DNA of 43,968 nucleotides, from the NCBI GenBank assembly GCA_017554605.1, contig JAFZIA010000035.1:1-43968 (forward strand), in the 5' to 3' direction. This stretch comes from Bacteroidaceae bacterium (GTDB taxonomy: Bacteria; Bacteroidota; Bacteroidia; Bacteroidales; Bacteroidaceae). Below the pieces are notes generated by a model that was not told the origin of the DNA, made no database searches, and saw nothing but the letters and a program-made list of their open reading frames with translations. Position numbers and translations under genes: made by a program. This document shows positions 1 to 12,081 of this stretch, piece by piece (positions within the stretch are counted from its first letter, which is position 1; each line of letters begins with the position of its first letter).

Positions 1-429
1 GTTCGCGCTTGTGGTCTCGAGCTCGGCTTGCCATACGACATGGTATACCGCCAGCCATTCCCTGGCCCGGGTCTTGGCGTACGCTGCCTCGGTGCAATCA
101 CACGTGACCGTCTTGAAGCATTGCGCGAGAGCGACGCAATTCTGCGCGAAGAATTCAAGAACGCAGGCCTTGACAAAACCGTATGGCAGTACTTCACCGT
201 AGTGCCCGACTTCAAGTCAGTTGGTGTACGCAACAATGCACGCTCATACGACTGGCCAGTAATCATCCGTGCCGTGAATACAGTGGATGCAATGACAGCA
301 ACCATCGAGCAGATAGAGTGGCCAATCCTACTAAAGATTACAGACCGCATACTCGCTGAAGTTCCAAACATCAACCGCGTATGCTACGATATGTCACCAA
401 AACCATCCGCAACAATTGAATGGGAATAA
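1..429 (+). CDS. guaA: GMP synthase (glutamine-hydrolysing), C-terminal part
   Basis: GMP synthase converts XMP to GMP using glutamine and ATP in purine synthesis in the cytosol. The reading frame is open from base 1, so the gene is cut by the window edge and only the last 142 residues are present. These are the C-terminal dimerisation/XMP-binding domain: the family motif RQPFPGPGLGVR lies near the start, and the protein ends in the usual SPKPSATIEWE, so the 3' end is intact. The stop codon sits inside a perfect 12-bp inverted repeat (426-457). The mobile island begins about 240 bases downstream, so guaA is the left chromosomal neighbour of the insertion and is not disrupted by it. Confidence 0.97.
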   Translation, partial: VRACGLELGLPYDMVYRQPFPGPGLGVRCLGAITRDRLEALRESDAILREEFKNAGLDKTVWQYFTVVPDFKSVGVRNNARSYDWPVIIRAVNTVDAMTATIEQIEWPILLKITDRILAEVPNINRVCYDMSPKPSATIEWE

Positions 430-457
430 TTTTTGCCCCAAATTAGGCAAAAATTAT
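426..457 (+). terminator. hairpin overlapping the guaA stop codon
   Basis: A perfect 12-bp inverted repeat (426-437 pairing with 446-457) with an 8-nt loop contains the guaA stop codon. No uridine run follows the right arm, so it may protect the transcript 3' end or end transcription only weakly. The stronger candidate terminator is at 567-601. Confidence 0.4.
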
Positions 458-458
458 C

Positions 459-536
459 GACAAGGCGAGTAGCAAAAGGTCGCACGAAGCGTGGGTAAAA
501 ATCACGCCGTGCGGGTTGCGAACAACGAGCCTTGTC
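459..536. repeat. structured intergenic repeat, copy 1
   Basis: Nested inverted repeats: outer arms GACAAGGC (459-466) and GCCTTGTC (529-536), inner arms CGCACG (481-486) and CGTGCG (508-513), and an apical stem GCGTG (489-493) with CACGC (503-507). The 3' shoulder GCGAACAACGA (518-528) recurs at 9564-9574, and the 5' shoulder TATCGA recurs at both copies near 9400-9574. The stem sequences differ between copies while pairing is kept, which suggests a conserved folded element. Identity unknown. Confidence 0.6.
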
Positions 537-566
537 AATGATAAAAACCATAAAACAAGCAACTTA

Positions 567-601
567 CAACCGCTTCAATACATTTCGTATTGAGGCGGTT
601 G
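567..601 (+). terminator. probable guaA terminator
   Basis: A 15-bp inverted repeat (567-581 with 587-601, one G-T pair, 5-nt loop) is followed by a short T-rich stretch (CTTTATATA). It lies between guaA and the left end of the island. Apart from this, the structured repeat at 459-536 and the attachment motif at 667-690, I see no gene in 430-867. Confidence 0.6.
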
Positions 602-666
602 CTTTATATACACACCCTCCAGAGTGTTCTAGAGGCATTTTTAATCGAAATGTTAATAAATGTAAT

Positions 667-690
667 TTGACACCACTTTTTGACACCAGT
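667..690. repeat. attachment-site-like repeat 1 (left end)
   Basis: Two tandem motifs, TTTGACACCAC (667-677) and TTGACACCAG (680-689), are spaced as in the three other copies. This copy sits 178 bases before the integrase start chosen here. It shares the following AGCA with copy 2, and GTTGCCA (695-701) resembles the GTTGCCA after copy 3. The first motif differs by one base (CAC for CAG). Confidence 0.65.
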
Positions 691-867
691 AGCAGTTGCC
701 ACCATTTGAGCAAATGAGATTTTCCAGATACCTTTGAAAAAAAATTAAAAAAAATTGCTTTTGCCCCTTGACTTTTCTATATGCCACCCATATACTTTAG
801 AAAATAATGAGTCAAAAACAGTTTTTATATGGTAGAAAATATTTTTTATATAGACCGTAAATTTACT

Positions 868-2157
868 ATGAGAGTCAATTTCAATCTCAAATCTGTAGGC
901 AACAAATCACAAATTTGGTTGACAACTACAATCGACAAGCAAAGAGCAAGAGTCTTTACTAAACTACTCATTGAGCCACAGTATTGGTTAAAGACAACAA
1001 GAACACAAGTAGGCGAAAAGGCAACAGAGGACACAAGCATTGGAGCAGTTCAGTTACGCTATAATAAAGGAGTGAACAAGGAACTGAAACAGATACTCTC
1101 CTACTGCGATGAATACGCAAAGGCAATCACAGAGGGCATACTTGAACACACGAAAGAGAACTTTGAGCACTACCTCAAGAACAAAATCAATGGCAAGGAA
1201 ACCGACATCAAGAAAAGACCTTTGACATTCATACAAGACTACATTGAACGCAAAAAGCAAATGGTAAACAAGACAACCCAACGCAAGATAGTCAGCGGTA
1301 CAATCTACAACCATTGCAACGCCTTGAAACGCTTGCAAGAGTTCTGCAACGACAATCGCCTTGCTTTTACTTGGCAACTGTTTGAGAATCGCCTTGAAGA
1401 ACGCTTGACTGCTTGGTTGTTGGGACAAGAGTATTCAGCAAACACCATTGCAAGTACATTCAGCATAATAAAGGCGTGGTTGAAAGAGACAGAACTTAAC
1501 AACATTGAGATAGACAAGTGCTATCACTCCTACACCACCAAATGCCAAGATGTTGAAAACATCTATCTCACAGAGGAAGAAATAAATCGCTTGTACGCTA
1601 TCAACTTTGAAGATGAGGCGGTCAAGGCAGTTGTCGGCAATAAAGCAAAGGTAGAGGAAACACGGGACCTGTTCATTGTCGCTTGTTGGACTGGACTACG
1701 CTTTGGCGATTGGCAAGACCTCTCAAATGTAGAGATAAGGAGTAACGACACTATGGTTGTCCACACTCGCAAGACAAACGCAACTGTCGTTATCCCAATG
1801 CACCCAATGGTTAAGGAGATATTCACTAAATACGGAGGCAGTTTCCCAAAAAGCGTGGACAAAACACATTGCTTGAAACATATCCGTCTGTGTGCTAAAC
1901 TTGCCAACATCAACGAAAGGACTACCCTATCCCGTGTAAAGGGTGGAAAGACAATCATCAACGACGGTGCCAAATATGAGTTCGTTATGAATCACACTGC
2001 AAGGCGTTCGTTTGCCACAAATATGTATCTCAAAGGTGTTCCAAGCATTAGTATTATGGCAATCACAGGACACACCACAGAGGACAATTTCCTCAAATAC
2101 ATCAAGGTAAACAAAGATGAACACGCAAGGATAGTAGCTCAAGCATTTGCAAGATAG
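868..2157 (+). CDS. tyrosine recombinase / integrase
   Basis: Site-specific recombinase that presumably integrates and excises the island. Numbering from the ATG at 868 (429 residues), the catalytic set is complete: Arg278 (WTGLRFGD), Lys302, His376 and Arg379 (HTARRSF), His402 (ITGHT) and the nucleophile Tyr411 (FLKYI). The N-terminus MRVNFNLKS is the usual start of the arm-binding domain in Bacteroidota integrases, followed by a SAM-like core-binding domain (about 120-220) and the catalytic domain (about 235-420). An in-frame ATG at 829 would add 13 residues; I prefer 868 on family grounds. It is the first gene inside the left attachment repeat, the standard position for an element's own integrase. 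Length is normal. Confidence 0.93.
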   Translation: MRVNFNLKSVGNKSQIWLTTTIDKQRARVFTKLLIEPQYWLKTTRTQVGEKATEDTSIGAVQLRYNKGVNKELKQILSYCDEYAKAITEGILEHTKENFEHYLKNKINGKETDIKKRPLTFIQDYIERKKQMVNKTTQRKIVSGTIYNHCNALKRLQEFCNDNRLAFTWQLFENRLEERLTAWLLGQEYSANTIASTFSIIKAWLKETELNNIEIDKCYHSYTTKCQDVENIYLTEEEINRLYAINFEDEAVKAVVGNKAKVEETRDLFIVACWTGLRFGDWQDLSNVEIRSNDTMVVHTRKTNATVVIPMHPMVKEIFTKYGGSFPKSVDKTHCLKHIRLCAKLANINERTTLSRVKGGKTIINDGAKYEFVMNHTARRSFATNMYLKGVPSISIMAITGHTTEDNFLKYIKVNKDEHARIVAQAFAR

Positions 2158-2285
2158 GTAACCCCTTTGAGGAAACCGTTTTGAGAGTCTATCTACTAAA
2201 GAACTGTTTTGTCTGTAAAATTTTCCTGAAAAAAATTCTACATTTTTTCAACCTACCTACTATTTATAGTAAAAAGGATAACACT

Positions 2286-2485
2286 ATGAATGAACAGACA
2301 AAACACAAAATTTCAATGGTGTTGCGTGGGAGAAAAAAGAGTGTGTTACACGCAAGAGAATTAGCCAAGCGATGCGTAAGTTACGCAAAAGCCCACAGCA
2401 CAAACAAGCCATAGCAGAGGCAATGAGAACTGTATGGCAAGAGAGAACTAATAAGAGTAATAATTTTAAAAGTAATGAAAAATGA
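2286..2485 (+). CDS. small NUMOD3-like basic protein, possible -1 frameshift product
   Basis: The zero frame from ATG 2286 runs MNEQTKHKISMVLRGRKK and on to a stop at 2412-2414. The -1 frame, entered at the A AAA AAG heptamer (2333-2339, correctly phased), continues ECVTRKRISQAMRKLRKS and ends at 2483-2485. Joined, they make a 66-residue basic protein whose pattern (HKIS...RGRKK...TRKRISQAMRKL) resembles nuclease-associated NUMOD3 helices better than either frame alone. The -1 frame overlaps the next gene's start by 11 bases, suggesting translational coupling. Either programmed frameshifting or a fixed one-base indel in the A run is possible. No nuclease domain is attached; a small DNA-binding role is only a guess. 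Confidence 0.5.
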
Positions 2486-3362
2486 AATTACACCAATTAT
2501 TGACAAGTTGAAAATCTGCTATACATTGGCAGAAAACAGTTATCTAAACATTTTAAGAGATAATCCAACAGAAGAATTTGAACACCCCGAATGGGGGTAC
2601 AGATTAAGGCAAGTGCAAGGCACTCACTTTAACTACATTTATGAAATAGTCTATCTTGACTATAAAGACAACACCTTCCAAGAGTTCACAGAGCAAGTCT
2701 TCGGCACGCTACAATGGGGATTGAAAGCAGACACCGATGAGGCTATGCAGTCGTTTGTATGGTTGCAAGTAGAAAATAAGCAATTCTACCTAAAACACGA
2801 TTGGCAACACAGCAGACTGTTGCACCTCGAATACATAGAAGATACTTTAGGACTTGTGTTTAACAACTTCACTCATTGGGACATCGCCATTGACAGCAGT
2901 TGCAATTATCCCAAGAAACTTATCCAACTGATACGGAACAAGGACTACACTCCTATAGTGAACGGCACCAAAATCACAGACAGGAAACAACTTATTGAGG
3001 ATATTCTCTATATTGGCGTTGGCAACCTCGACAGAATTAAGGAGTACAGCGTATTGGTGGCACAGAAGAACAAGAACATCAGCCTCAACGCTTACAACAA
3101 GAAACGAGAGATTGAGAGCAAGAGCCACAAACAATACATTTTAGACAACAAGGGCAACCCAAAGAAACTGTATCGTTTAGAGGTTAGGATAAACAGCGAT
3201 GTTCTCAAAGACTTTTTTACAAGGGAGCAGATAACATACAGCCCCAAGATATTTTTAGACAAGGATTGTCTTTTGTTTTTCTTTATGACATTCCTCGACA
3301 GAGTTCTGCGTTTCCAAGACAAGAACGGAAGAAAGAGTTACAGTATTTTAGAACTGTTGTAA
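2475..3362 (+). CDS. Rep_trans-like replication initiation protein (putative)
   Basis: 295 residues. The central and C-terminal parts resemble rolling-circle replication initiators and relaxase-like Rep_trans proteins: an acidic metal-site-like segment HWDIAIDSS (about 134-142), a tyrosine in the context LNAYNKKREIE (about 204-214) where the family has its nicking Tyr, and RLEVRINSD (about 234-242) as in the conserved RxE strand. It starts inside the small frameshifted frame and is followed by 342 bases holding four iterons, so initiation at or near that site is plausible. In an integrative element this would allow replication or mobilisation of the excised circle. The family call rests on motif pattern only. 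Confidence 0.55.
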   Translation: MKNEITPIIDKLKICYTLAENSYLNILRDNPTEEFEHPEWGYRLRQVQGTHFNYIYEIVYLDYKDNTFQEFTEQVFGTLQWGLKADTDEAMQSFVWLQVENKQFYLKHDWQHSRLLHLEYIEDTLGLVFNNFTHWDIAIDSSCNYPKKLIQLIRNKDYTPIVNGTKITDRKQLIEDILYIGVGNLDRIKEYSVLVAQKNKNISLNAYNKKREIESKSHKQYILDNKGNPKKLYRLEVRINSDVLKDFFTREQITYSPKIFLDKDCLLFFFMTFLDRVLRFQDKNGRKSYSILELL

Positions 3363-3549
3363 TTGCGTGGCAAGGTATTAGTAAACTACCTTGCCATTAC
3401 ATATATATAGACATAACATATTGATAATAAAACCACTTATTGTAATATAAAATCTTACATTTTCTTACAAGGGTGGTAATGAAGAAAAAAACATATTTTT
3501 CGTAAATAGTTGAAAATAAATCCAATCTTATATATATCCTCTTTATACC

Positions 3550-3619
3550 GTATTCAATATTTAATTGTATTCAAATAAATCTGTATTCAATCAAAAAAAA
3601 TATGTTTTTCTGTATTCAA
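3550..3619. repeat. four GTATTCAA iterons, possible replication origin or res site
   Basis: The octamer GTATTCAA occurs in the same orientation at 3550-3557, 3567-3574, 3583-3590 and 3612-3619, in very AT-rich DNA between the Rep-like gene and the serine recombinase. Spacings of 17, 16 and 29 bases put the first three about 1.5 helical turns apart. This resembles an iteron origin or a recombinase binding array. The rest of 3363-3704 holds only a candidate promoter. Confidence 0.5.
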
Positions 3620-3639
3620 AATTTTCTTTGATATTTTTG
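3609..3639 (+). promoter_or_regulatory. candidate promoter of the serine recombinase
   Basis: TATTTTTG at 3632-3639 matches the Bacteroidota -7 consensus TAnnTTTG. TCTG at 3609-3612, 19 bases upstream, is one base off the -33 TTTG. The last iteron lies between the two boxes, so an iteron-binding protein could repress this promoter. Confidence 0.4.
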
Positions 3640-3704
3640 ACTCTGGAGCTTGCAGGAGCAGGACTTTCCTGGTACATTAGCCAGTGAATTAAAGAGATAG
3701 CAAT

Positions 3705-4337
3705 ATGAGTACAGCAGTTATTTACGCAAGAGTTTCATCAACCAACGACAGACAGAACACCCAAAGACAGATAGAGGACTTGACACGCTTCGCCAATAGC
3801 AACGACTACAGCATTGTAGGAACATACGAAGAACACATAAGCGGAGCAACCAAGAACGAGAACAGGACTGTCCTTATGGAGTGCATCAACTACTGTATAG
3901 CAAACAAGGTTAACTATATCCTACTGTCGGAGTTGAGTCGTTTAGGTCGTTCCACCTTGCAAGTATTGAAATCGCTTGAAATGTTGCACGAAGCGGGAGT
4001 ATCTGTATATATCCAAAACCTTGGCATTTACACCCTGAACGCCACAGGAGAGGCGAATCCAATCGCCAGCATAATGGTAACAGTTCTTGCAGAAATGGCG
4101 AACATAGAGCGTTCTAACATCGTTTACAGACTCAATTCGGGGCGTGAGAGTTACATTGCAAATGGTGGCAAGTTAGGTCGCAAGAAAGGCAGTGTAAAAA
4201 CCACAGAGCAGAAGAAAGAGGAATACAAAGAGGTTATTTCATTCTTGAAGCGTGGTTACTCTGTACGAAACACAGCAACCCTCTCAAATGTAAGCGTTAG
4301 CACAGTACAGAGGGTAAAGAGAGAGTTTGGTATTTAA
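3705..4337 (+). CDS. serine recombinase (resolvase/invertase family)
   Basis: A 210-residue small serine recombinase of normal length. The catalytic domain starts YARVSS with nucleophile Ser11 or Ser12 and Arg9; the second active-site cluster is SRLGRS (78-83). The long E helix (about 118-145) leads to a linker GGKLGRKKGS and a C-terminal helix-turn-helix (about 170-210). It could resolve dimers or invert/delete units of the island. The last 24-70 codons recur in diverged, broken form at 6230-6519 and 7432-7608. A strong hairpin terminator follows immediately, after which the first cargo gene begins. This is the only intact resolvase copy in the window. Confidence 0.93.
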   Translation: MSTAVIYARVSSTNDRQNTQRQIEDLTRFANSNDYSIVGTYEEHISGATKNENRTVLMECINYCIANKVNYILLSELSRLGRSTLQVLKSLEMLHEAGVSVYIQNLGIYTLNATGEANPIASIMVTVLAEMANIERSNIVYRLNSGRESYIANGGKLGRKKGSVKTTEQKKEEYKEVISFLKRGYSVRNTATLSNVSVSTVQRVKREFGI

Positions 4338-4359
4338 TTTCAAAGCATATTTCATTCAT

Positions 4360-4396
4360 AAGTTGTTGCTCCAGGCGTAGCCGGGAGCAACAACTT
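4360..4396. terminator. cassette-border terminator, unit 1
   Basis: A 13-bp perfect inverted repeat (AAGTTGTTGCTCC, 4360-4372, pairing with 4384-4396) with an inner GC/GC pair. Homologous hairpins follow both resolvase remnants (6520-6556, 7609-7645). There the stem has TATTGC/GCAATA instead of TGTTGC/GCAACA, a paired G-C to A-T change that keeps the fold. Confidence 0.85.
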
Positions 4397-4513
4397 TGTT
4401 TATATACAAAAAGTCCAATCTCGGTAACATTAAAAGAATTATCAAAAATTTATTCTGTAATATTATTAGATTGCACTATATTTGTTAAATAGAATTCTAT
4501 TTATTGATTGCGT

Positions 4514-6196
4514 ATGGCAAAAGAAAATCCTTACTCTGCGTTTCATCTTCAAAAGGTTGAAGATGTTGATAAATTAGTTCTTTTGATAAAGTCAAAAGGG
4601 AAATTTCAAATAGAAGATTATAATAGAATAATAAAAAAAGCAGAAAAAAGTTCGCAGCCAACAAGAATACGCAGAAGATTGATTAAAGAGGTACACCCAT
4701 TAATCAGTTATTTCTTTTCTGAAATTACAGATACTCCTTTACTATCTAATGATACTAACCAACATAATGCCATTGATAATTTATTTTGGAAGAAAGATTA
4801 CAAAGCCTCTGATTTTGTTATAAGTGATGGAAAAATCACATTAGGAGAATTCTACTTAAAATCAGCAAGAATTCACAAAGTTCACAAATCTTGGCTTGAA
4901 GATATTGAACACATCTTTCACATCGCACCTGAATACAACAAGGATGGAGAGATTATACCCAACAGATTCCATTTTGTCCCCTATAATGATTTATCTTTTT
5001 TACTGAACAGCATTTCCGAACAAATGGATGCTCAATACAAAAGAAAATCAATAGATAAAATTTATAGAGAATGGAACGACACCCTACTTAAACATTTACA
5101 CATAAGAGGTATAAGAGCATTCTTCAAAAAGTTAAATAGAATAGGTGTACATACTGTTTCAGATGATTCAGAGATACTAGTTTGGGACAAAACCGATAAT
5201 ATCAACCCCAACATTAGTGTCCCAATGACAGATGTAACTGTTGATGATGGATATATAACAGTTTCAACCAAGAACATAAAATTCACAAAGCAAGCATACT
5301 ACAAACGCTATGTAAACATTGATTATTTAGCGTATGAGGAAATTATACAGCCTAATGAAAACGGATACCAAGAAACACCATCTTGGGAAAGTTTTTATGA
5401 AATTCTATTAAGCAAATACAATGCTTCAATTATAAACGAAATCACAGATGATTTAAAAGACAAATACCAAATGAGCTGTAATGCACTCTTGCACTCCATT
5501 AAAAAAGAAAAAACAATATCATTTAAAACATATCAAAGCAAAAAACGCTTTTTAGAAAACAACAACGGCAGTTTCCTTTATCTGTTTTTAGATGAAAATT
5601 CCCATTTATGGTATCCTTTCAAATATTTCATATATATAAACACATACCGTTTTTATGATTTAATTTCTGACACATTTGAATATGACCAAACCACAGTTAA
5701 ACAAATTGCCCAAATTATAGATGATAATTGGGATATTATTAAAGAGAATTCAAGTTGGTTATTGTCAGATATAATACCATCTAAGAACAACACTAACAAA
5801 GACAACAATACAAAAATCCTCAAGAGTTTAATAGAAGACTATTGCCCTCGTCCTGAAATAACTTACCATAAGAATAAAGTCGTAACTTATTTTATTGAGG
5901 ACGCAAGTCATATTAGCGATTACACTACAGATTTTTTATACCAGAAAAATGCAGAAAAATTTATAACATATATGAAATGGTCAAAGGATAGGGATTCCAA
6001 TACCATATCATTAATACCAACAAATACAAAATACGCAAGCTATTTGTTTTTTGTTGACACATCTGCATATTCACTTGAAATTGCATCATATGTAATTTGG
6101 AGATATTTTACAAATAATCACTGTTGCAACAAAAGACAAGGTTTTAAGATTACAGAAACATTCAAACTATTTGGAATTTACGAAGTATACAAATAA
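4514..6196 (+). CDS. unrecognised 561-residue cargo protein
   Basis: I do not recognise a family. The chosen start is ATG 4514 (MAKENPYSAF); a TTG at 4508 is in frame. The protein is hydrophilic with no signal peptide or clear membrane span, rich in Lys, Asn, Ile and Tyr, with a basic N-terminal stretch (PTRIRRRLIKEVH, near residue 50). Codon use is far more AT-rich than in the flanking chromosome, a sign of transfer. It sits between the resolvase terminator and the second attachment repeat (gap 4 bases), the position where such islands carry accessory genes. An anti-phage or competition role is possible from position alone; nothing in the sequence shows it. Confidence 0.8.
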   Translation: MAKENPYSAFHLQKVEDVDKLVLLIKSKGKFQIEDYNRIIKKAEKSSQPTRIRRRLIKEVHPLISYFFSEITDTPLLSNDTNQHNAIDNLFWKKDYKASDFVISDGKITLGEFYLKSARIHKVHKSWLEDIEHIFHIAPEYNKDGEIIPNRFHFVPYNDLSFLLNSISEQMDAQYKRKSIDKIYREWNDTLLKHLHIRGIRAFFKKLNRIGVHTVSDDSEILVWDKTDNINPNISVPMTDVTVDDGYITVSTKNIKFTKQAYYKRYVNIDYLAYEEIIQPNENGYQETPSWESFYEILLSKYNASIINEITDDLKDKYQMSCNALLHSIKKEKTISFKTYQSKKRFLENNNGSFLYLFLDENSHLWYPFKYFIYINTYRFYDLISDTFEYDQTTVKQIAQIIDDNWDIIKENSSWLLSDIIPSKNNTNKDNNTKILKSLIEDYCPRPEITYHKNKVVTYFIEDASHISDYTTDFLYQKNAEKFITYMKWSKDRDSNTISLIPTNTKYASYLFFVDTSAYSLEIASYVIWRYFTNNHCCNKRQGFKITETFKLFGIYEVYK

Positions 6197-6200
6197 CCAT

Positions 6201-6229
6201 TTCGACACCAGTTCTTGACACCAGTAGCA
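6201..6229. repeat. attachment-site-like repeat 2
   Basis: Doubled motif TTCGACACCAG (6201-6211) and TTGACACCAG (6215-6224), followed by TAGCA as in copy 1. It begins 4 bases after the stop of the first cargo gene, and the resolvase remnant begins directly at its right edge. Confidence 0.65.
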
Positions 6230-6519
6230 TATATCGTTTACAGACTCAATTCGGGCAGAGATAGTTATATTGCCAATGGTGGAAAGTTAGGTCGCAAGAA
6301 AGGCAGTGTAAAAACCACAGAGCGCAAGAAAGAGGAATACAAAGAGGTTATTTCATTGCTCAAACGAGGTTACTCTGTACGAAACACAGCAAAGTTTTGT
6401 TTCACGAACCCACTACCGCTCGGCAAAGTAAATAAATTTTCTTTACACTCGCTTAATCGTAGCTTTCAAGCGTAAGCGTTAGTACAGTACAAAGAGTGAA
6501 AAGAGAGTTTACATTATAA
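6230..6519 (+). pseudogene. truncated serine recombinase 3' end, remnant A
   Basis: Homologous to codons from about Ile139 to the end of the intact recombinase at 3705-4337 (VYRLNSGRDSYIANGGKLGR, then RNTA). The N-terminal catalytic domain is absent. After RNTA a foreign stretch of roughly 70-80 bases interrupts the gene and brings a stop at 6473-6475. Homology then resumes (GTAAGCGTTAGTACAGTACA) to the original 3' end at 6517-6519. The same insertion is present in remnant B but not in the intact gene, so the remnants derive from a different lineage. Not expected to make a working recombinase. Confidence 0.85.
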
Positions 6520-6556
6520 AAGTTATTGCTCCTGGCGAAGCCGGGAGCAATAACTT
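6520..6556. terminator. cassette-border terminator, unit 2
   Basis: A 13-bp perfect inverted repeat (6520-6532 with 6544-6556) follows remnant A. The stop codon of the minus-strand cargo gene (6555-6557) overlaps its right arm, so it can end transcription from both sides. Stem substitutions relative to unit 1 are compensatory. Confidence 0.85.
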
Positions 6557-7163
6557 ATGATTTTAATTTAATAAGGCAATCATCATTGCTGACTATATTT
6601 TGTAATGTCATATTCATTTTTTCAGCGTCTAAAGGTTCATTAGCTTTTATACCTGAATATTTAGGAGAAGGCGCTTCATCACGTGGTTCAAAGCCCAAAG
6701 ACTTTAATTTTTTTATGGGTGCATAGTCATCACAAAAGGTTTCCAATCCAATTTTGGGTTCAAATACAACACGAATAATAAAATTCAACACTACAGAACT
6801 TAATATAGTAATAAGAATAGAAGGCAAACAAGCTATTAAAACATTATTCCAATTTCTTTCAACATTATCAGTATCTGCAAACACTCCACTCATCACATAT
6901 ACAGAAGCAATAAACACTAATAACGATAAAATTAACACAATACCACTCAATTTAGCGTCTTTCTTTGCACACTCTTTGCAAGATGGAACTAACACATCTA
7001 CCATCTTATATGTATACTTATGATATACTCCAGTAAGATGAAACACCTTTTCAAAATAAAAACATTTACGAGTTGTTTCAACTCCCTCCACAGCATCATT
7101 CTTTTTACAAAAATGACATTTAGGATTTTTTGTGTAATCAGGTTTGATTTCAATATGTGCCAT
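6555..7163 (-). CDS. CxxC-containing two-span membrane protein
   Basis: The start is taken at ATG 7163 (MAHIEIKPDYTKN), 202 residues; the frame runs further upstream but without a good start. The N-terminal part has two CxxC pairs (CHFC near residue 16 and CKEC near 63), which suggests a zinc ribbon. Two hydrophobic segments follow (about 72-93 and 107-130), then a soluble C-terminal tail of some 70 residues (FEPRDEAPSPKYSG). Both termini would be cytoplasmic if the two spans form a hairpin. I do not recognise the family. It is the only gene of island unit 2 and is strongly AT-rich. Its stop abuts the border terminator. Confidence 0.75.
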   Translation of the reverse strand: MAHIEIKPDYTKNPKCHFCKKNDAVEGVETTRKCFYFEKVFHLTGVYHKYTYKMVDVLVPSCKECAKKDAKLSGIVLILSLLVFIASVYVMSGVFADTDNVERNWNNVLIACLPSILITILSSVVLNFIIRVVFEPKIGLETFCDDYAPIKKLKSLGFEPRDEAPSPKYSGIKANEPLDAEKMNMTLQNIVSNDDCLIKLKS

Positions 7164-7180
7164 AAAATTTACATTTAATG

Positions 7181-7188
7181 CAAAAATA
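7181..7188 (-). promoter_or_regulatory. candidate -7 box for the unit 2 membrane protein
   Basis: On the minus strand the bases read TATTTTTG, a full TAnnTTTG match, ending 17 bases before ATG 7163. No convincing -33 TTTG is seen 19 bases upstream. The implied 5' leader is about 10 bases. Confidence 0.4.
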
Positions 7189-7262
7189 CAATTTATTTGT
7201 TTTGAATAAATAAAATAACTACAAATAATTACTGACAATTATAATGAATAGCAAACTTTCTC

Positions 7263-7292
7263 TTTGACACCAGTTTTTGACACCAGTTGCCA
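7263..7292. repeat. attachment-site-like repeat 3
   Basis: Doubled motif TTTGACACCAG (7263-7273) and TTGACACCAG (7278-7287), followed by TTGCCA as at copy 1. Right of it lies an 81-base block matching the DNA right of copy 4, so this looks like a former right end. Confidence 0.65.
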
Positions 7293-7300
7293 TTTTACAA

Positions 7301-7381
7301 GGCAAAAATTAGAGTTAAAGTATTGATAATTAAGTTAAAAATTTTAGCAATAATTTAACAGTTCTAGTCGAGTGGGAGTAA
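7301..7381. repeat. duplicated right-flank block, internal copy
   Basis: Matches 9294-9374 along its length, with TTAAAGTATTGATAAT and AACAGTTCTAGTCGAGTGGG identical and scattered changes between. Each copy stands just right of an attachment repeat. It is either duplicated target DNA or a conserved element end. Confidence 0.7.
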
Positions 7382-7407
7382 TAAAAACCCCTTTTTAAGC
7401 ATATTTG

Positions 7408-7440
7408 AATAACCTCTGCCCTCAAAAAGCAGAGGTTATT
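7408..7440. terminator. hairpin at the start of remnant B
   Basis: A perfect 12-bp inverted repeat (AATAACCTCTGC, 7408-7419, with 7429-7440). The right arm runs directly into recombinase codons at AGAGGTTATTTCATT, so the junction lies in shared sequence, as expected for a microhomology-mediated deletion. Confidence 0.55.
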
Positions 7441-7608
7441 TCATTGCTCAAACGAGGTTACTCTGTACGCAACACTGCAAAACTTTGTTTTCACGAACCC
7501 ATTACCGCTTGGCAAAGCAAATAAATTTTCTTTACACTCACTTAATCGTGGCTTTCAAGCGTTAGCGTTAGTACAGTTCAAAGGGTAAAAAGAGAGTTTT
7601 CATTATAA
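7432..7608 (+). pseudogene. truncated serine recombinase 3' end, remnant B
   Basis: Encodes EVISLLKRGYSVRNTAK (the helix-turn-helix region of the intact recombinase), then the same foreign insertion as remnant A with a stop (TWQSK equivalent region, AAATAA), then resumed homology to the original 3' end at 7606-7608. It is more truncated than remnant A, starting some 110 bases later in the gene. Closely similar to remnant A in the insertion, with small indels. No function expected as a protein. Confidence 0.8.
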
Positions 7609-7645
7609 AAGTTATTGCTCCTGGCTAAGCTAGGAGCAATAACTT
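7609..7645. terminator. cassette-border terminator, unit 3
   Basis: A 13-bp perfect inverted repeat (7609-7621 with 7633-7645), with an inner TGGC/GCTA extension differing from units 1 and 2 but still largely paired. The stop of the DUF2335 gene (7646-7648) abuts its right edge. Confidence 0.85.
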
Positions 7646-8143
7646 TTATAATACATCTTGGTCTTTAGATTTCTTTTTAAGGTCTCTCTTTATTTCACTT
7701 TTGCCATTTAAAAACAATCCAAGCAATATAACCATTGTTACAGAAAGAAATGTAGCGGCAAATTTTAACATTTCAAATTTTATTGCAAAAAATACAGCAA
7801 CAGCCACACACAAGAAAACTATAATAAAACCAAAGATTTGTCCTCTTTTACTTTGTTCAACTTGACCAAAAATAGCTTTTTTTTCAAGCAACATTCTATG
7901 GTCTTGTTGTTTCTCAGCCATTTTCAATATTCTATCTGCTGCACCTGGTTGTATTTGCTCATACTCTGCCAAAGCTTTTGGCGGCGGTATTGGCCCAGAA
8001 TACGTTTCACTTCTTATTATCATTAAGGCTTCTTTGACTTCTTCCTTTTTATTTTCAGGTACAGCCTCAAGAATAACTTCTACAGGGTTTTCTTTATTAT
8101 TAGTTTCGCTATCTAAATTATTATGCGGTTTATCACTTGACAT
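7646..8143 (-). CDS. DUF2335 family membrane protein
   Basis: 165 residues. The hydrophilic, acidic N-terminus is followed by the DUF2335 signature SGPIPPPKALAEYEQI...PGAADRILKMAEKQQDHR (about 49-84), a basic segment, and two close hydrophobic spans (about 103-123 and 127-146) before a Lys-rich tail. DUF2335 proteins are short predicted membrane proteins of unknown function, often found on mobile DNA. The gene lies 7 bases downstream of a second small membrane gene on the same strand, so the two form an operon running toward the border terminator. Full family length. Confidence 0.85.
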   Translation of the reverse strand: MSSDKPHNNLDSETNNKENPVEVILEAVPENKKEEVKEALMIIRSETYSGPIPPPKALAEYEQIQPGAADRILKMAEKQQDHRMLLEKKAIFGQVEQSKRGQIFGFIIVFLCVAVAVFFAIKFEMLKFAATFLSVTMVILLGLFLNGKSEIKRDLKKKSKDQDVL

Positions 8144-8150
8144 TTTTCAC

Positions 8151-8354
8151 TCATTTATATAGTTCCAAAGATTTATATATATCCATTCCAATTGTTCCAA
8201 AATCAGATTCAATAGCTGTTTTATCAGCTTGTAAAGAAGACCTTGAAGCGTTAAAGGTATAATATGACGAAAAAACACTCAAAATACTACCAATTCCCAT
8301 TATAAAAGAATTCGTAGCAAATAGATAATCTGTTCTATAAAATGATTTTTTCAT
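8151..8354 (-). CDS. small membrane protein paired with DUF2335
   Basis: 67 residues: a short basic N-terminus (MKKSFYRTDYLF), one hydrophobic segment (about 10-30, FATNSFIMGIGSILSVF), then a soluble helix-forming tail (QADKTAIESDFGTIGMDIYK). It ends 7 bases before the DUF2335 start, so the two are almost certainly co-transcribed and probably act together at the membrane. I recall similar small proteins next to DUF2335 genes in other bacteria but cannot verify this here. Function unknown. The 8355-8598 gap upstream is AT-rich with nothing else I can name. Confidence 0.7.
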   Translation of the reverse strand: MKKSFYRTDYLFATNSFIMGIGSILSVFSSYYTFNASRSSLQADKTAIESDFGTIGMDIYKSLELYK

Positions 8355-8598
8355 AACTTTATTATATATGAAAATTATGCAAAAACAAAGCTTGGCAACT
8401 TTATGTTACTAATATACAATCAAAGGAACGAATTTGTTGTATTTAAAAAACTATTTAATGTTTAATTAGTAATTATTCACAAATTTACATATAAAAGAAT
8501 ATATTCTATTCCTATATATAGAATCATACAAACTCAATTTTTATTGGCAAATATAATCAATTATAGGAGGAAAAGCAACAAATATTTAGTTTTTTTGA

Positions 8599-8606
8599 TA
8601 TATTTG
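8599..8606 (+). promoter_or_regulatory. -7 box of the structured RNA
   Basis: TATATTTG matches TAnnTTTG exactly and ends 4 bases before the first paired base of the RNA (8611). Transcription should therefore begin at about 8611-8614. A -33 TTTG is not evident. Confidence 0.55.
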
Positions 8607-8611
8607 CAACG

Positions 8612-8803
8612 TGTTCGGGTTAATCCGAGTACAAGACATATGATTTTTGCTCAAGGCAGTCTGAATCACCACCTCGGAACACAACGAGCAAAACAGTAGT
8701 TCTATTGAGAGTAAGCACTTTCAGTGCAGACTTTCACATATAGAACTATGGCTTGTGGTGAGCCAAGACTGCGTATGACGGGAGTCTGCGCTTTTCTTTT
8801 TTA
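8612..8803 (+). ncRNA. structured RNA of about 190 nt with pseudoknot, unknown family
   Basis: There is no credible ORF, but promoter, fold and terminator are all visible. Main rod: 8656-8662 with 8766-8772 (GCAGTCT/AGACTGC), 8666-8672 with 8755-8761 (TCACCAC/GTGGTGA), 8697-8705 with 8740-8748, 8707-8712 with 8730-8735, apical GCACT/AGTGC (8715-8719 with 8723-8727). The 5' side pairs back into the rod's internal loop: GTGTTC (8611-8616) with GAACAC (8677-8682) and TTTTGCTC (8645-8652) with GAGCAAAA (8686-8693), giving crossing helices. Terminator 8771-8791 is followed by TTTTCTTTTTT. AGACT at 8766 can pair with AGTCT upstream (8658) or downstream (8783), a possible switch. Not recognised as 6S RNA, tmRNA or a known riboswitch. 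Confidence 0.65.
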
Positions 8804-8865
8804 TAGTTAAGCAAAAGACCTAAACAAGCAAGCTTAACTTATGTTTAACTATAAATTCAATCATT

Positions 8866-9249
8866 ATGAAAAAAGTACTATTAATGTTAACTTGTGTATT
8901 ATGCTTGTCTTCTTGTGGCACATTATTCACACCTAGCAAACAGCCCATAACATTTATGGGAATGCCTGAAACCCGAATATACGACAACGGTAAAAAACTT
9001 GGCGAAATCGCCGAAGGCGGAACAACTACTATTAAAGTTAGAAAAAAACTTTCTAACAAGACCTTGATTGCTAAAAAAGATGGATACAAAAACACTCCAG
9101 TTACACTTGATGCAACATTCAATCCTGTGTCTATCATAAATCTTACTAACATATTAGCTTGGGCTATTGATTTGGGTACAGGCAAATGCTGTAAGTGGGA
9201 TACAGATGTCGTTGAAATTGAAATGGAAAAATCAGAAACAGAAAAATAA
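8866..9249 (+). CDS. small lipoprotein
   Basis: 127 residues with a lipoprotein signal peptide: basic MKKV, a hydrophobic core, and lipobox LSSC with Cys17 as the lipidated residue. The mature part has a PEGA-like beta pattern (RIYDNGKKLGEIAEGGTTTIKV, then LIAKKDGYKNTPVTL), a short hydrophobic stretch (IINLTNILAWAIDLGTGK) and an acidic-basic tail. Bacteroidota carry many such small lipoproteins, sometimes annotated through weak matches to IF-2. It is the last gene before attachment repeat 4 (8-base gap) and lies 62 bases after the structured RNA terminator. It may be anchored in the inner or outer membrane. Confidence 0.75.
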   Translation: MKKVLLMLTCVLCLSSCGTLFTPSKQPITFMGMPETRIYDNGKKLGEIAEGGTTTIKVRKKLSNKTLIAKKDGYKNTPVTLDATFNPVSIINLTNILAWAIDLGTGKCCKWDTDVVEIEMEKSETEK

Positions 9250-9256
9250 CAAATAT

Positions 9257-9285
9257 TTCGACACCAGTTCTTGACACCAGTTCGA
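9257..9285. repeat. attachment-site-like repeat 4 (right end)
   Basis: Doubled motif TTCGACACCAG (9257-9267) and TTGACACCAG (9271-9280), spaced exactly as in copy 2. It marks the right limit of the island; the DNA beyond has the duplicated flank block and chromosomal structured repeats. Confidence 0.65.
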
Positions 9286-9293
9286 TAAATTAA

Positions 9294-9374
9294 GGACAAA
9301 AATTTGTGTTAAAGTATTGATAATAAAGTCAAAACAATTAGCAACAAATTAACAGTTCTAGTCGAGTGGGAGTA
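9294..9374. repeat. duplicated right-flank block, outer copy
   Basis: Partner of 7301-7381. It ends with AGTTCTAGTCGAGTGGGAG in both copies. The rest of 9250-9686 holds two structured repeats and a perfect inverted repeat; I see no protein gene. Confidence 0.7.
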
Positions 9375-9394
9375 AAAAACTGCGTTTTTTACGA

Positions 9395-9474
9395 CTATCG
9401 AGCCAATCGGAGAGCCATTGGTCAAGCGTAGTGCTGGCGAAGGCAGCACCGCTTGGGTGGCGCTTGCGTAACAA
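9395..9474. repeat. structured intergenic repeat, copy 2
   Basis: After CTATCGAGC comes a perfect nested hairpin CAAGCG (9423-9428), GTGCTG (9431-9436), CAGCAC (9444-9449), CGCTTG (9450-9455), then a GGTGGCGCTTGCGTAACAA shoulder resembling the GGTGCGAACAACGA of copy 3. Same architecture as 459-536 with different stem bases. Confidence 0.55.
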
Positions 9475-9498
9475 ATGCGATTGGGTCAATGGGAACAA

Positions 9499-9574
9499 CT
9501 ATCGAGCAACCTTTTGAGCAGTTAGTCGCGTGCAGCACTGACGAAGATAGTGCCACGCGGGGTGCGAACAACGA
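9499..9574. repeat. structured intergenic repeat, copy 3
   Basis: CTATCGAGC shoulder, then CGCGTG (9527-9532), GCACT (9535-9539), AGTGC (9549-9553), CACGCG (9554-9559) and the 3' shoulder GCGAACAACGA (9564-9574), identical over 11 bases to copy 1 (518-528). Confidence 0.55.
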
Positions 9575-9604
9575 CCACAGCCAATAAAGACACAGGCAAC
9601 AAAC

Positions 9605-9640
9605 AAGTCGCGTTAACCCGTTGCTGGGTTAACGCGACTT
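9605..9640. terminator. perfect 15-bp inverted repeat before the secreted protein gene
   Basis: AAGTCGCGTTAACCC (9605-9619) pairs perfectly with 9626-9640 around a 6-base loop. A T-run follows neither arm, so it may be an operator or an mRNA hairpin in the leader of the 9687 gene rather than a simple terminator. Confidence 0.5.
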
Positions 9641-9686
9641 TACACACAAAACCAACACATTCTAAAAAAAACAAGACACCGACATT

Positions 9687-10151
9687 ATGAAAAAAATCAT
9701 ACTATTGCTTTTTGCACTTGTATTCACATCGGGTCTGACATACGCCCAAGAAGAAACAAAACTTATTATCCTGGAAGCAAAGATTGACAAAGCCGATTAC
9801 ACCGACATATACCTGCAAAACCAAGCATTCTTAGTATTCTACTACACCGACGACGAACAGTTGAATATGGCTAACGTATTCCCCAAAGAAGAGTCGCAAT
9901 CGTACGGCAAAGTATCTATGTGGACCGAAGAAAAGGAGAACCCCGATACCCCCGAAGGATATAAGACAGAATCATTCGTTTTCCGTTGGAGCTACATCAA
10001 CACCTACGACACCAAGACTGGCTCCGCCGTATGCAACCTAAAGAAGATATACAAGCCCAGCGCAATAGCATACGAATTGTATATGCTCACCGAAGATGCC
10101 AGCACACTGGAATTCAAAGGCTACATAGACGGTACATTAAAGAAATACTGA
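9687..10151 (+). CDS. secreted protein of unknown function
   Basis: 154 residues with a clear Sec signal peptide (MKKIILLLFALVFTSGLTYAQ, cleavage near residue 20). The mature domain is acidic, rich in Tyr, Asp and Thr, with alternating beta-like strands, and has a single Cys, so no disulphide. No family recognised. It stands alone: upstream is a perfect inverted repeat and downstream a long bidirectional terminator shared with serB. Base composition matches the chromosome rather than the island, so it is probably native. A periplasmic or surface-exposed location is likely. Confidence 0.8.
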   Translation: MKKIILLLFALVFTSGLTYAQEETKLIILEAKIDKADYTDIYLQNQAFLVFYYTDDEQLNMANVFPKEESQSYGKVSMWTEEKENPDTPEGYKTESFVFRWSYINTYDTKTGSAVCNLKKIYKPSAIAYELYMLTEDASTLEFKGYIDGTLKKY

Positions 10152-10174
10152 TAGACATTTGTTTATATTCAATC

Positions 10175-10228
10175 CCATAGCAAAATCTCCTGCAAGCGTA
10201 AAAGTTTGCAGGAGATTTTTTGCTATGG
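10175..10228. terminator. bidirectional terminator between secreted protein gene and serB
   Basis: A long inverted repeat: CCATAGCAAAATCTCCTGCAA (10175-10195) pairs with 10205-10228 around a 9-base loop, with one small asymmetry. T-runs in the right arm (plus strand) and in its complement (minus strand) suit both convergent genes. Confidence 0.85.
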
Positions 10229-10243
10229 ACAGCAGAAAAGAGC

Positions 10244-11473
10244 TTATTCCCTACCCTTCTCGTCGAGATAAGAGTCCTTGAATCCAAGGAAGTACAATAC
10301 TCCGTCGAGACCTATTGTATTAATCGACTGCTTGGCATTTGCCACCACACGCGGTTTGGCGTGGAATGCTATACCCAATCCAGCCTCGCTGAGCATAGGA
10401 AGGTCGTTGGCACCATCGCCCACGGCAATTGTCTGTGCAATATCCACCTTCTCCACCTGCGCGATGAGCTTCAGCAGCTCGGCCTTGCGACGTCCGTCGA
10501 CAACCTCGCCCAGGTAACGGCCCGTGAGCTTTCCATTCTCGTCGATTTCGAGTTCATTGGCATAGACATAGTCTATTCCGTATTTCTTTTGCAGATACTC
10601 GCCAAAGTAAGTAAATCCGCCCGAGAGGATTGCAATCTTGTATCCGTAGCGCTTGAGCACGTACATCAGACGGTCGACACCCTCGGTTATAGGCAGTTTC
10701 TCGGCAATGTCCTGCATAACCGATGCGTCGAGTCCCTTGAGCAGCGCCACACGCTCGGCAAAGCTGCTCTTGAAGTCGAGCTCGCCACGCATCGCCCTCT
10801 CGGTAATCTCCTTAACCTTGTCGCCCACACCCGCACGCATTGCAAGCTCATCGATAACCTCGGTCTGTATGAGGGTTGAGTCCATATCGAAACATATGAG
10901 CCTGCGCATACGGCGGTACATATTGTCTATCTGGAACGAGCAGTCCATTCCCATCTCGCTCGACAGGCGCATCAGCTCCGACTGTATAAAACCGCGGTCG
11001 CGCGGAGTGCCACGAAGCGAGAACTCTATGCAGGCGCGCACGTTCTTCGAGGGCTCGGCAATGGAAATACGTCCCGAGAGGCGGCGTATGGAGTCTATAT
11101 TCAGTCCCTGGTCGGCAATGAGTCGCGTTACAGCCTCAATCTGCTCGGCCGACAGCTTGCGTCCCAGCAGTGTAAGAATGTACCTGTTCTTTCCCTGGCG
11201 CTTTACCCACGCCTCGTAGTCGTCGGCATCGACGGGGAAGAACTTGATGTTCACGCCGAGCTCGCTTGCCTTAAAGAGCAGTTCCTTCATCACGTGTCCC
11301 GAGCGGTCCTCGGTAACACGCACAAGGATACCCAAAGAGAGCGTGCTGTGAATGTCGGCTTGCCCAATATCGAGGACTGTAACGTCGTACCGCGAGAGGA
11401 TTGACATCACGGAGGCTGTAAGACCTGGACGGTCCTCTCCTGTTATTCTTATAAGTATCAATTCTTTTGCCAT
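10244..11473 (-). CDS. serB: phosphoserine phosphatase with N-terminal ACT domains
   Basis: Dephosphorylates O-phosphoserine, the last step of serine synthesis, in the cytosol. With the start at ATG 11473 (MAKELILIRITGEDRPG) it has 409 residues, the usual Bacteroidota length; a 26-residue upstream extension in the same frame looks untranslated. Two ACT-type regulatory domains cover about 1-170. The HAD phosphatase domain has motif I DMDSTLIQ with Asp196 (nucleophile) and Asp198, motif II LSGGF (about 283-287), and motif IV GDGANDLPML (about 352-361). All catalytic residues are present. Monocistronic, ending in the bidirectional hairpin at 10175-10228. Confidence 0.97.
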   Translation of the reverse strand: MAKELILIRITGEDRPGLTASVMSILSRYDVTVLDIGQADIHSTLSLGILVRVTEDRSGHVMKELLFKASELGVNIKFFPVDADDYEAWVKRQGKNRYILTLLGRKLSAEQIEAVTRLIADQGLNIDSIRRLSGRISIAEPSKNVRACIEFSLRGTPRDRGFIQSELMRLSSEMGMDCSFQIDNMYRRMRRLICFDMDSTLIQTEVIDELAMRAGVGDKVKEITERAMRGELDFKSSFAERVALLKGLDASVMQDIAEKLPITEGVDRLMYVLKRYGYKIAILSGGFTYFGEYLQKKYGIDYVYANELEIDENGKLTGRYLGEVVDGRRKAELLKLIAQVEKVDIAQTIAVGDGANDLPMLSEAGLGIAFHAKPRVVANAKQSINTIGLDGVLYFLGFKDSYLDEKGRE

Positions 11474-11754
11474 AGGTGTTAATCTATTTTTGAGGATAGA
11501 CGATGGTTGCTTTTCTATTACAACCGCAAAATTATTATTTTCTTTTGACAATAAAAGATAAGGAGAGGAATTTTATCCTAATGAACACATAAAACAGCAG
11601 CAAAAGTTGCCTGTCTATTAGCATTTGCATATAGATATTTGACAAGCAATCTTTTACTGATGTCATTTTGCGTACATTACAAGCGAGACTATAAGGAAAG
11701 CAATGTGATACTATAAAAAGCTGCCACAATAGCCCCTATTGCAAACCGACGGGG

Positions 11755-12081
11755 TTACTCCTTAGTAAGAATATCTATTGCATCGGCCACAGCAGTATTA
11801 AGCGGTGGAACGCTCGAAGGTAAGTCAAAATCACTCTTCTTGAGCGGACGCTGTGCTCGGTACATACCTTGTGCACCCAAAAGTTCTGCGGTGTCTACGT
11901 AAAACACCCCTCTCTGCTTGTCGGACTCGATAATTACAAAGCCGTCATACACAAGTTCGTTCTCATACACCTTACGCAAGAACTCAGCCCTGTCGCTAAT
12001 ACGCATACACCTATTGCCACTCTCCTGGATTGTCTTTTCGAAGCTCTCGAACAGACGGTTCAATACTTTCTCGTTAATCAT
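11755..12081 (-). CDS. hypothetical protein, 108 residues
   Basis: The start is taken at ATG 12081 (MINEKVLNRLFESFEKTI); the longer frame to 12273 runs through an intergenic repeat and is unlikely to be coding. No signal peptide or membrane span. The pattern is a helical N-terminus, a short beta region (YDGFVIIESDKQRGVFYVDT) and a Pro-rich C-terminus (SSVPPLNTAVADAID). I do not recognise the family. It lies alone between serB (281 bases away) and a 750-base gene-poor stretch. Codon use is typical of the chromosome, and it is probably a real lineage-restricted gene. Confidence 0.65.
   Translation of the reverse strand: MINEKVLNRLFESFEKTIQESGNRCMRISDRAEFLRKVYENELVYDGFVIIESDKQRGVFYVDTAELLGAQGMYRAQRPLKKSDFDLPSSVPPLNTAVADAIDILTKE

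Follow-up and report, generated by a model that had tools for sequence, protein, structure and literature searches.

Background

Two island systems described earlier resemble the locus reported in this work. In Proteobacteria, GIsul2 occupies the 3' end of guaA with the core 5'-GAGTGGGA-3' and has three attachment (att) sites, the third of which is internal (PMC9376610). Its integrase excises and inserts the integrase-less CR2-sul2 unit, which lies between attLR and attR (PMC9376610). In Dehalococcoides, the islands at ssrA include 16 with and 15 without an integration module, and the passengers have been termed cis-mobilisable (PMC3146451). Here we analyse a 43,968-nt stretch of a Bacteroidaceae bacterium (assembly GCA_017554605.1, contig JAFZIA010000035.1, positions 1 to 43,968; hereafter the window), whose contig starts inside guaA, the gene for GMP synthase, and whose host genome comprises 2.48 Mb in 140 contigs and is 87.6% complete. 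The locus consists of three related mobile units stacked at the guaA end, only one of which retains its insertion enzyme. It is very probably an accreted array of guaA-specific integrative elements, moved by the tyrosine integrase of unit 1 at a core in the guaA end, with doubled motifs as arm sites and integrase-less units as passengers.

The comparison covered 44 genomes of the genus, 29 of which have a guaA match, a set of 150 genomes that includes the host's own, and 399 genomes of the family in 30 genera. L numbers denote loci and G numbers denote genomes in this set.

Copies of the guaA 3' end bound the elements

Each boundary is formed by a copy of the end of guaA, GARTGGGARTAA, at 418-429, 7370-7381 and 9364-9375; these copies had gone unnoticed in an earlier interpretation of the window made from its letters alone (the sequence-only reading). 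The stretch GAGTGGGARTRA corresponds to the last codons of guaA (Glu-Trp-Glu-stop). Behind intact right-type copies of the doubled motif described below come 82 conserved bases, then GAGTGGGARTRA, then unrelated DNA. This arm-to-core spacing of 82 nt was found in all 20 measurable right ends. There are 25 known right-type sites, 24 of which entered the spacing set; the core, sought 60-110 nt from the motif, was found in 20, and the other four have the core altered or gone (L040:15110, L043, L098) or lie at a contig edge (L055). The spacing is also 82 nt in L139 and 84 nt in G063.

Conservation per 10-nt block at 19 core-anchored right ends is 0.71-0.99 left of the core and 0.93 in the core, against 0.39-0.64 beyond it. 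From their start region, 13 of the 19 post-core stretches align with sequence found behind guaA in another genome, and three of these 13 are left flanks of the next unit at tandem junctions. On the left, the distance from core to motif is 126 nt in seven integrase-type loci (L031, L037, L040, L041, L046, L048 and L139), with L037 counted as integrase type though its sequence stops before the integrase gene. As in an island specific to the guaA 3' end, the core GAGTGGGA is duplicated at both ends of the insertion.

Doubled motifs inside the element

The four doubled GACACCAGT motifs reported in the sequence-only reading are present at 669-690, 6204-6225, 7266-7287 and 9260-9281; the first 9-mer of the first pair, GACACCACT, is one mismatch away from GACACCAGT. 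With at most one mismatch, the 9-mer occurs 17 times in the window versus 6.94 expected, a number reached in 0 of 100 shuffles. The 22-bp doubled form has four copies in the whole host genome, all of them in the window (backwards control 0). The motif is thus not common elsewhere; had it been so, this would have counted against the sequence-only reading by that reading's own criterion. Among the 150 genomes, 18 carry the 22-mer, namely 17 of the 44 genus members and, of the 106 others, a single one (genus g21). The 4-nt spacer between the 9-mers varies (TTTT, TTCT, TCTT, TCCT, TTAT).

The same motif adjoins integrases of 51% (G063) and 47% (G466) identity, within an overall range of 47-53%, and G075 and G054 have another doubled motif of 13-bp period, of GTACCC type and read by eye, at a comparable place. 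Because a doubled motif of 13-bp period co-varies with the integrase, we call these motifs arm-type sites, a term used for the lambda and CTnDOT integrases. The doubled GACACCAST motifs, with their 13-bp period, are therefore regarded as putative arm-type integrase binding sites within the element.

Complete, empty and stacked sites in related genomes

Related genomes carry from zero to three units rather than one identical three-unit block, and the proposal that related elements had stacked at one site is thereby supported. No unit is present in L107 and L110 (over about 12 kb) or in L096 (over 4.9 kb); one occurs, for example, in L051, L056 and L106, two in L040 and in G001 (on two contigs, L103 and L036), and three also occur. 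L139 (G297, genus g9) is a single complete unit of 4.95 kb, in the order guaA end, motif, integrase, Rep, serine recombinase, two cargo open reading frames (ORFs), motif, flank and core; its integrase, Rep and serine recombinase are 64%, 62% and 84% identical to those of the window. A third genus, g21, contains the complete 13.4 kb element of G063, located at the end of a longer guaA paralogue (542 aa) and followed by nrdG. Its 15-bp direct repeats, ATTGAGTGGGAGTAA, lie at 8679 and 22093 of the oriented stretch, with the motifs inside at 8831 and 21990; the integrase is 51% and the serine recombinase 62% identical, and there is no Rep match. The empty site is found in its congener G239, where guaA ends in ACAATTGAGTGGGAATAA and is followed directly by a terminator of the same kind and nrdG.

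Integrase relatives (E up to 1e-60) occur in 10 of the 399 family genomes, in 8 of the 30 genera, and the integrase stands directly behind guaA in nine of these ten genomes, including three of 34-36% identity in local alignments. In the tenth, G041 (L041 10626-11003), the element stands behind an unrelated 125-aa ORF ending TIEWE-stop, the shared stretch being ACTATTGAGTGGGAGTAA; it could be a secondary site, or else a chimeric join, which is less likely. By eye, genes adjoining the G041 element resemble a defence cluster. Public data contain integrase relatives that are 90-94% identical, in bins from ruminant rectum (Paraprevotella sp., Bacteroidaceae). On the right side of the island, the region of the 9687 gene and serB has matches in six other genomes at 77-90% identity, and in the three genomes with both matches (G010, G013, G016) it differs from the guaA match in contig and place, so the right neighbour was unusable for an empty-site comparison.

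Composition of the three units and formation of the array

The content ascribed to unit 1 by the sequence-only reading, namely an integrase, a Rep-like protein, iterons, a resolvase and cargo, is borne out by profile matches and sequence (Table 1). The tyrosine integrase adjoins attL and has residues R291, K315, H389, R392, H415 and Y424, which we take to be its catalytic motifs. Relatives of the Rep-like protein occur in 25 of the 399 family genomes, and a 4.1 kb circular plasmid gave a 30% match to a distant relative of it; the plasmid search with the window protein itself gave no match. Compared by sequence with solved structures, this protein gave nothing useful (best E 0.87), and no relative of Rep or integrase was confirmed in three scans of viral contigs. 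PADLOC returned no convincing defence-system match for the island proteins, the best being 0.00099 for cargo. Unit 1 has its own excision and integration module, as does an integrative and mobilisable element (IME). Profile searches at E up to 1 gave no relaxase match for any of seven island proteins, though they did not extend to an origin of transfer (oriT), and the island is not filed as an IME.

Two side observations concern these genes. Small ORFs lie in L155 and G063 at a place comparable to 2286-2414 of the window. Family-wide, for example in L147, L149, L150 and L153, a gene for a Rep-like protein of about 30% identity still lies close to one for a small serine recombinase; a larger ORF that by eye starts like a serine recombinase is nearby, and there is no match to the window integrase.

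In units 2 and 3, a 3' stub of the resolvase, a 37-bp palindrome and cargo remain, as had been proposed, and the stub is all that is left of the recombination genes. The division into three units holds, while the motifs fail as its boundaries, the units being bounded by the guaA-end copies. The fusion of units 1 and 2 at 6204 leaves the window with only two core-bounded segments, 429-7381 and 7381-9375. Inter-unit junctions in L040 and L036 run from right motif through flank, core and left flank to left motif. At 6204, a detail the sequence-only reading had missed, the right-type motif abuts the left end of unit 2 and the core and flanks between units 1 and 2 are absent; therefore flank, core and flank were lost here, as recombination between two motif copies would produce. 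Since both partners at the start of unit 3 contain AGAGGTTATTTCATTG, a 16-bp microhomology, this unit lost its left motif, integrase and Rep by microhomology deletion.

As in a cis-mobilisable element (CIME), integration and transfer genes have been lost from units 2 and 3. Unit 2 keeps its right core and arms and lost its left core in the 6204 fusion, and unit 3 has both cores and no left arms; a relative, L051, retains arms and cores on either side.

Scars, cargo and spread of integrase-less units

Among 29 resolvase matches, four (one truncated at a contig end) start at codon 1; the remaining 25 are stubs, although one of these lies at a contig edge and is possibly a cut intact gene. These stubs outnumber the integrase genes of the genus, which are five in four genomes (window, L040, L041, L046, L048). 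Stubs start at codon 137-139 in 7 of 25 cases, at 166-167 in 5 of 25 and at 181-183 in six, although the last may be alignment ends, and nine start 2-12 nt behind a motif. Ten copies of an insertion of about 65 nt in the resolvase, accompanied by differing cargo, are spread over 7 genomes; the three intact genes long enough to cover this region all lack it.

The cargo comprises 31 clusters of ORFs of at least 75 aa, some of them doubtful. Ten clusters were scanned; HSDR_N, HipA-like, HNH, cupin, PAD_porph and BspA-type LRR families were above the cut-off, and four clusters gave weaker matches or none. In many units the cargo starts directly behind the palindrome and stops about 10-20 nt before the right arm pair.

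Judging from nucleotide identities, integrase-less units have evidently passed between species. Pairs with guaA on both contigs were compared, and two further pairs had no guaA for comparison. Integrase-less blocks are 98.3% identical over 1834 nt in L098 and L043 versus 88.4% for guaA, 96.0% over 1194 nt in L100 and L055 versus 80.5%, and 98.4% over 1071 nt in L103 and the window versus 78.8%. Between the window and L031, from another genus, guaA is 74.1% identical, the integrase 93.5% and Rep 97.9%. These units could form a non-autonomous island class, comparable to miniature inverted-repeat transposable elements (MITEs), that lives off rare complete guaA elements, inherits its scars (137-139, 166-167 and the shared insertion), retains arms and core as the least that mobility requires, exchanges its cargo in the stretch from palindrome to right arms and crosses species without an integrase of its own. 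We put this forward tentatively, as plausible yet somewhat short of probable.

Proposed mechanism and alternative explanations

In the mechanism we favour, the unit 1 integrase would recombine the short core GAGTGGGARTRA between attP and the chromosome, leaving guaA whole on the left and a core copy on the right, with the doubled motifs on either side of the core acting as arm-type binding sites. Newcomers would insert beside a resident core, so that elements stack. Most residents have lost the integrase, Rep and the 5' part of the resolvase, with arms, core and palindrome left beside a single cargo gene or a few, and would be cis- or trans-mobilisable passengers, which a helper integrase may move in trans. 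Units 1 and 2 are predicted to excise as one 6.95 kb circle, from core 418-429 to core 7370-7381; the expected circles would join two guaA-end copies rather than any two of the four doubled motifs. Unit 3, without left arms, is probably stuck or moves only with its neighbours.

Several observations weigh against this account. The left arm-to-core distance varies, from 126 nt in the seven integrase-type loci to 239 in the window, mostly 225-258 in integrase-less units and 861 in L039. Six of the 19 post-core stretches have no match to a guaA untranslated region (UTR). In L043, L053, L056, L105 and L106, the ordinary guaA terminator stands directly behind guaA and the stub follows a few hundred bases on, a left end that the simple insertion model leaves unexplained. 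In the genus of G063, guaA is beside nrdG in just one of eight other loci, the other seven being without guaA in the fetched flank, and for L139 no empty site was recovered, its right flank being matched over at most 41 nt in six congeners. Stubs of the 137-139 class occur both with and without the 65-nt insertion, so a single founder is not proven. The L104/L106 pair is weak (93.0%, cargo only, versus 83.7% for guaA), and L094/L098 points in the opposite direction (cargo 74.5% versus guaA 89.2%). The near-identical blocks stop short of the left core, a pattern equally expected from homologous recombination. The circle, its excision and integrase binding are what we infer from the DNA.

It is possible, if on balance improbable, that the spread of integrase-less units is due to homologous recombination, with imported DNA exchanged through conserved flanks (guaA, arms, stub and palindrome). 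The near-identical blocks run from the stub or palindrome to the right flank, arm pair or leader RNA, not from core to core, and the arm-pair fusion at 6204 together with the 16-bp microhomology cut of unit 3 means that short-repeat recombination does occur here. However, the flanks are short, and the species differ by 12-21% at guaA, a divergence that should hamper homologous exchange. The intact arm-flank-core-flank-arm junctions of L036 and L040 are moreover what site-specific insertion would leave, and laboratory work has shown an integrase-less unit being moved by a related guaA integrase (PMC9376610). An integron-like cassette system, in which cargo would be captured between the palindrome and the right arm pair, perhaps by the serine recombinase, is improbable. 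Its appeal lies in the 31 cargo clusters, some doubtful, in cargo edges that lie near palindrome and right arms in many units, and in a serine recombinase that still accompanies Rep of about 30% identity at loci where other integrases have taken over; yet no free cassette, attC-like site (no attC model was run) or row of several cassettes in one arm pair was seen, exchange through shared flanks accounts for the pattern, and the guaA-core architecture speaks against an integron.

The sequence-only reading took the doubled GACACCAGT motifs themselves as the insertion sites that divide the island. They do recur at every unit border, and their 4-nt spacer varies as an overlap region might, but crossover maps to the guaA 3' end, and the motifs are set back from the core into the element, by 82 nt at its right end and by 126-239 nt at its left. 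We rejected this very improbable candidate on the conservation of right ends, where the outer sides of the motifs are element-specific and conserved up to the guaA core, on the layout of G063, where the 15-bp direct repeat sits at the core with the motifs inside, and on the empty site of G239, which has the core and shows no such motif in the stretch behind its guaA. That the arrays are assembly artefacts of metagenome bins at repeated sequence is exceedingly improbable: the genomes are mostly draft bins, contigs often stop at these repeats and the G041 join rests on about 25 shared bases, but the same order recurs in many bins and several genera, within contigs of 45-195 kb. We retain an accreted array of guaA-specific elements as the preferred explanation.

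Features of the window

Table 1. Coordinates, strands and supporting evidence for features of the guaA island in the window.
Feature	Position	Strand	Evidence or remark
guaA (GMP synthase) 3' part, target gene, intact to stop	1..429	+	guaA matches in genus
Left core copy GAATGGGAATAA, last guaA codons plus stop, attL	418..429	+	compared with right copies
Element left flank, 239 nt	430..668	+	126 nt in seven other integrase-type loci
Left doubled motif, 13-bp period, proposed arm-type sites	669..690	+	motif scan, genome-wide count, relatives
Tyrosine integrase, 442 aa	829..2157	+	PF00589 3.4e-9
Small ORF, 43 codons, between integrase and Rep, candidate excision factor	2286..2414	+	read from sequence
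Rep-like protein	2475..3362	+	PF05144 sub-threshold, E 0.054
Four GTATTCAA iteron-like repeats	3550..3619	.	read from sequence; region conserved in L032, L033, L048
Small serine recombinase, intact	3705..4337	+	PF00239 1.1e-30
37-bp palindrome at unit 1 cargo border	4360..4396	.	
Unit 1 cargo, about 560 aa, no family found	4508..6196	+	family scans
Right-type arm pair of unit 1 fused to unit 2 left end	6204..6225	+	flanks and core between them gone
Unit 2 resolvase 3' stub, from codon 139, with ~65-nt insertion	6233..6510	+	resolvase alignment
Unit 2 palindrome	6520..6556	.	
Unit 2 cargo, 202 aa, no family, two predicted membrane stretches (by eye)	6555..7163	-	family scan
Right arm pair, unit 2	7266..7287	+	motif scan
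Conserved right flank, 82 nt	7288..7369	+	alignment of right ends
Middle core copy GAGTGGGAGTAA	7370..7381	+	comparison of core copies
Core plus left-flank start, 100% identical over 77 nt to integrase-bearing L031, joined to stub at AGAGGTTATTTCATTG	7370..7446	+	
Unit 3 resolvase 3' stub, from codon 175, with insertion; left arm pair lost	7431..7599	+	resolvase alignment
Unit 3 palindrome	7609..7645	.	
Unit 3 cargo, DUF2335 membrane protein	7646..8143	-	PF10097 1.3e-19; phrog_3996 6.6e-38; 98.6% nt identical in L103
Unit 3 cargo, small lipoprotein-like ORF behind leader RNA at 8609-8812	8866..9249	+	
Right arm pair, unit 3	9260..9281	+	motif scan
Conserved right flank, 82 nt	9282..9363	+	alignment of right ends
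Right core copy GAGTGGGAGTAA, attR	9364..9375	+	then guaA 3'-UTR-like host DNA, 93% over 28 nt to L105

Leader RNA and nearby repeats

A candidate structured leader RNA at 8609-8812 of the window (+) has relatives in 19 of 44 genus genomes and no Rfam match. Its fold reaches -72.7 kcal/mol (z -5.6), and 0 of 200 shuffles were as low. Over 19 copies, 81% of cells pair, a share that falls to 44% or less on sliding; both sides change in 22 pairs, a number reached by 0 of 500 shuffles, the structure having been derived from these same copies in both cases. In 20 of the 21 places inspected the RNA precedes an ORF, and by eye these ORFs often resemble signal-peptide proteins or lipoproteins. The RNA occurs inside units and also near element-free guaA (L107, L110), and that of unit 3 is an observation separate from island mobility.

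An intergenic palindromic repeat of the GTCACGCG...GCGTGGGTTGCG type at 9400-9567 is scattered over many genus genomes, and is also found between guaA and stubs. Rfam gave no family above the gathering score in 1-12000; its four sub-threshold matches all lie within 10102-10229. A strong palindrome at 10172-10229, between the 9687 gene and serB, has sub-threshold matches to microRNA families and is probably a terminator.

Significance and comparison with known systems

The locus belongs to a natural series (complete, decayed, stacked and empty) of one island family in several genera of gut Bacteroidota, with precise cores and arm motifs. It allows a test of whether decay leaves islands as inert remnants or turns them into a lasting class of passengers dependent on a helper integrase. 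It also illustrates how small cargo, in part restriction-like, HipA-like or HNH, can come to be exchanged at a site downstream of an essential gene.

A search of open-access texts brought up no description of guaA-specific elements in Bacteroidota. Strand-biased circularising elements (PMC9345347) were set aside, as they are reported to have two recombinase genes and inverted repeats at their ends. NBU1, NBU2 and Tn4555 are alike in their Bacteroidota hosts, tyrosine integrase and small size, but, as listed in PMC5704250, they have MobP relaxases and do not use guaA, whereas no relaxase family was found in the window island. The Dehalococcoides ssrA islands likewise stand in tandem at one gene end and are bounded by direct repeats of that end; they differ in their large serine recombinase DsiB, their target ssrA and their module (PMC3146451). 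Accretion of CIMEs, IMEs and integrative and conjugative elements (ICEs) also yields decayed elements with attL and attR, stacked through later insertions of relatives, and is described mainly for streptococci (PMC5704250); in the guaA family, decayed units of different species have scars in common and are more numerous than complete elements.

GIsul2 with CR2-sul2 shares the tyrosine integrase at the guaA 3' end, the same core, an internal att site and an integrase-less unit, a likeness drawn from description and not from integrase sequence. Its cargo is unrelated to that of the window, and it carries RepA, RepC and IncP-type transfer proteins (table in PMC5704250); the passages of PMC9376610 do not mention doubled arm motifs. 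Islands at guaA and accretion are ordinary in principle; what is new is this family, and the extent to which stripped units share scars and cross species. Its behaviour very probably amounts to accretion of passengers mobilisable in cis, which experiments on GIsul2 have demonstrated at the same core.

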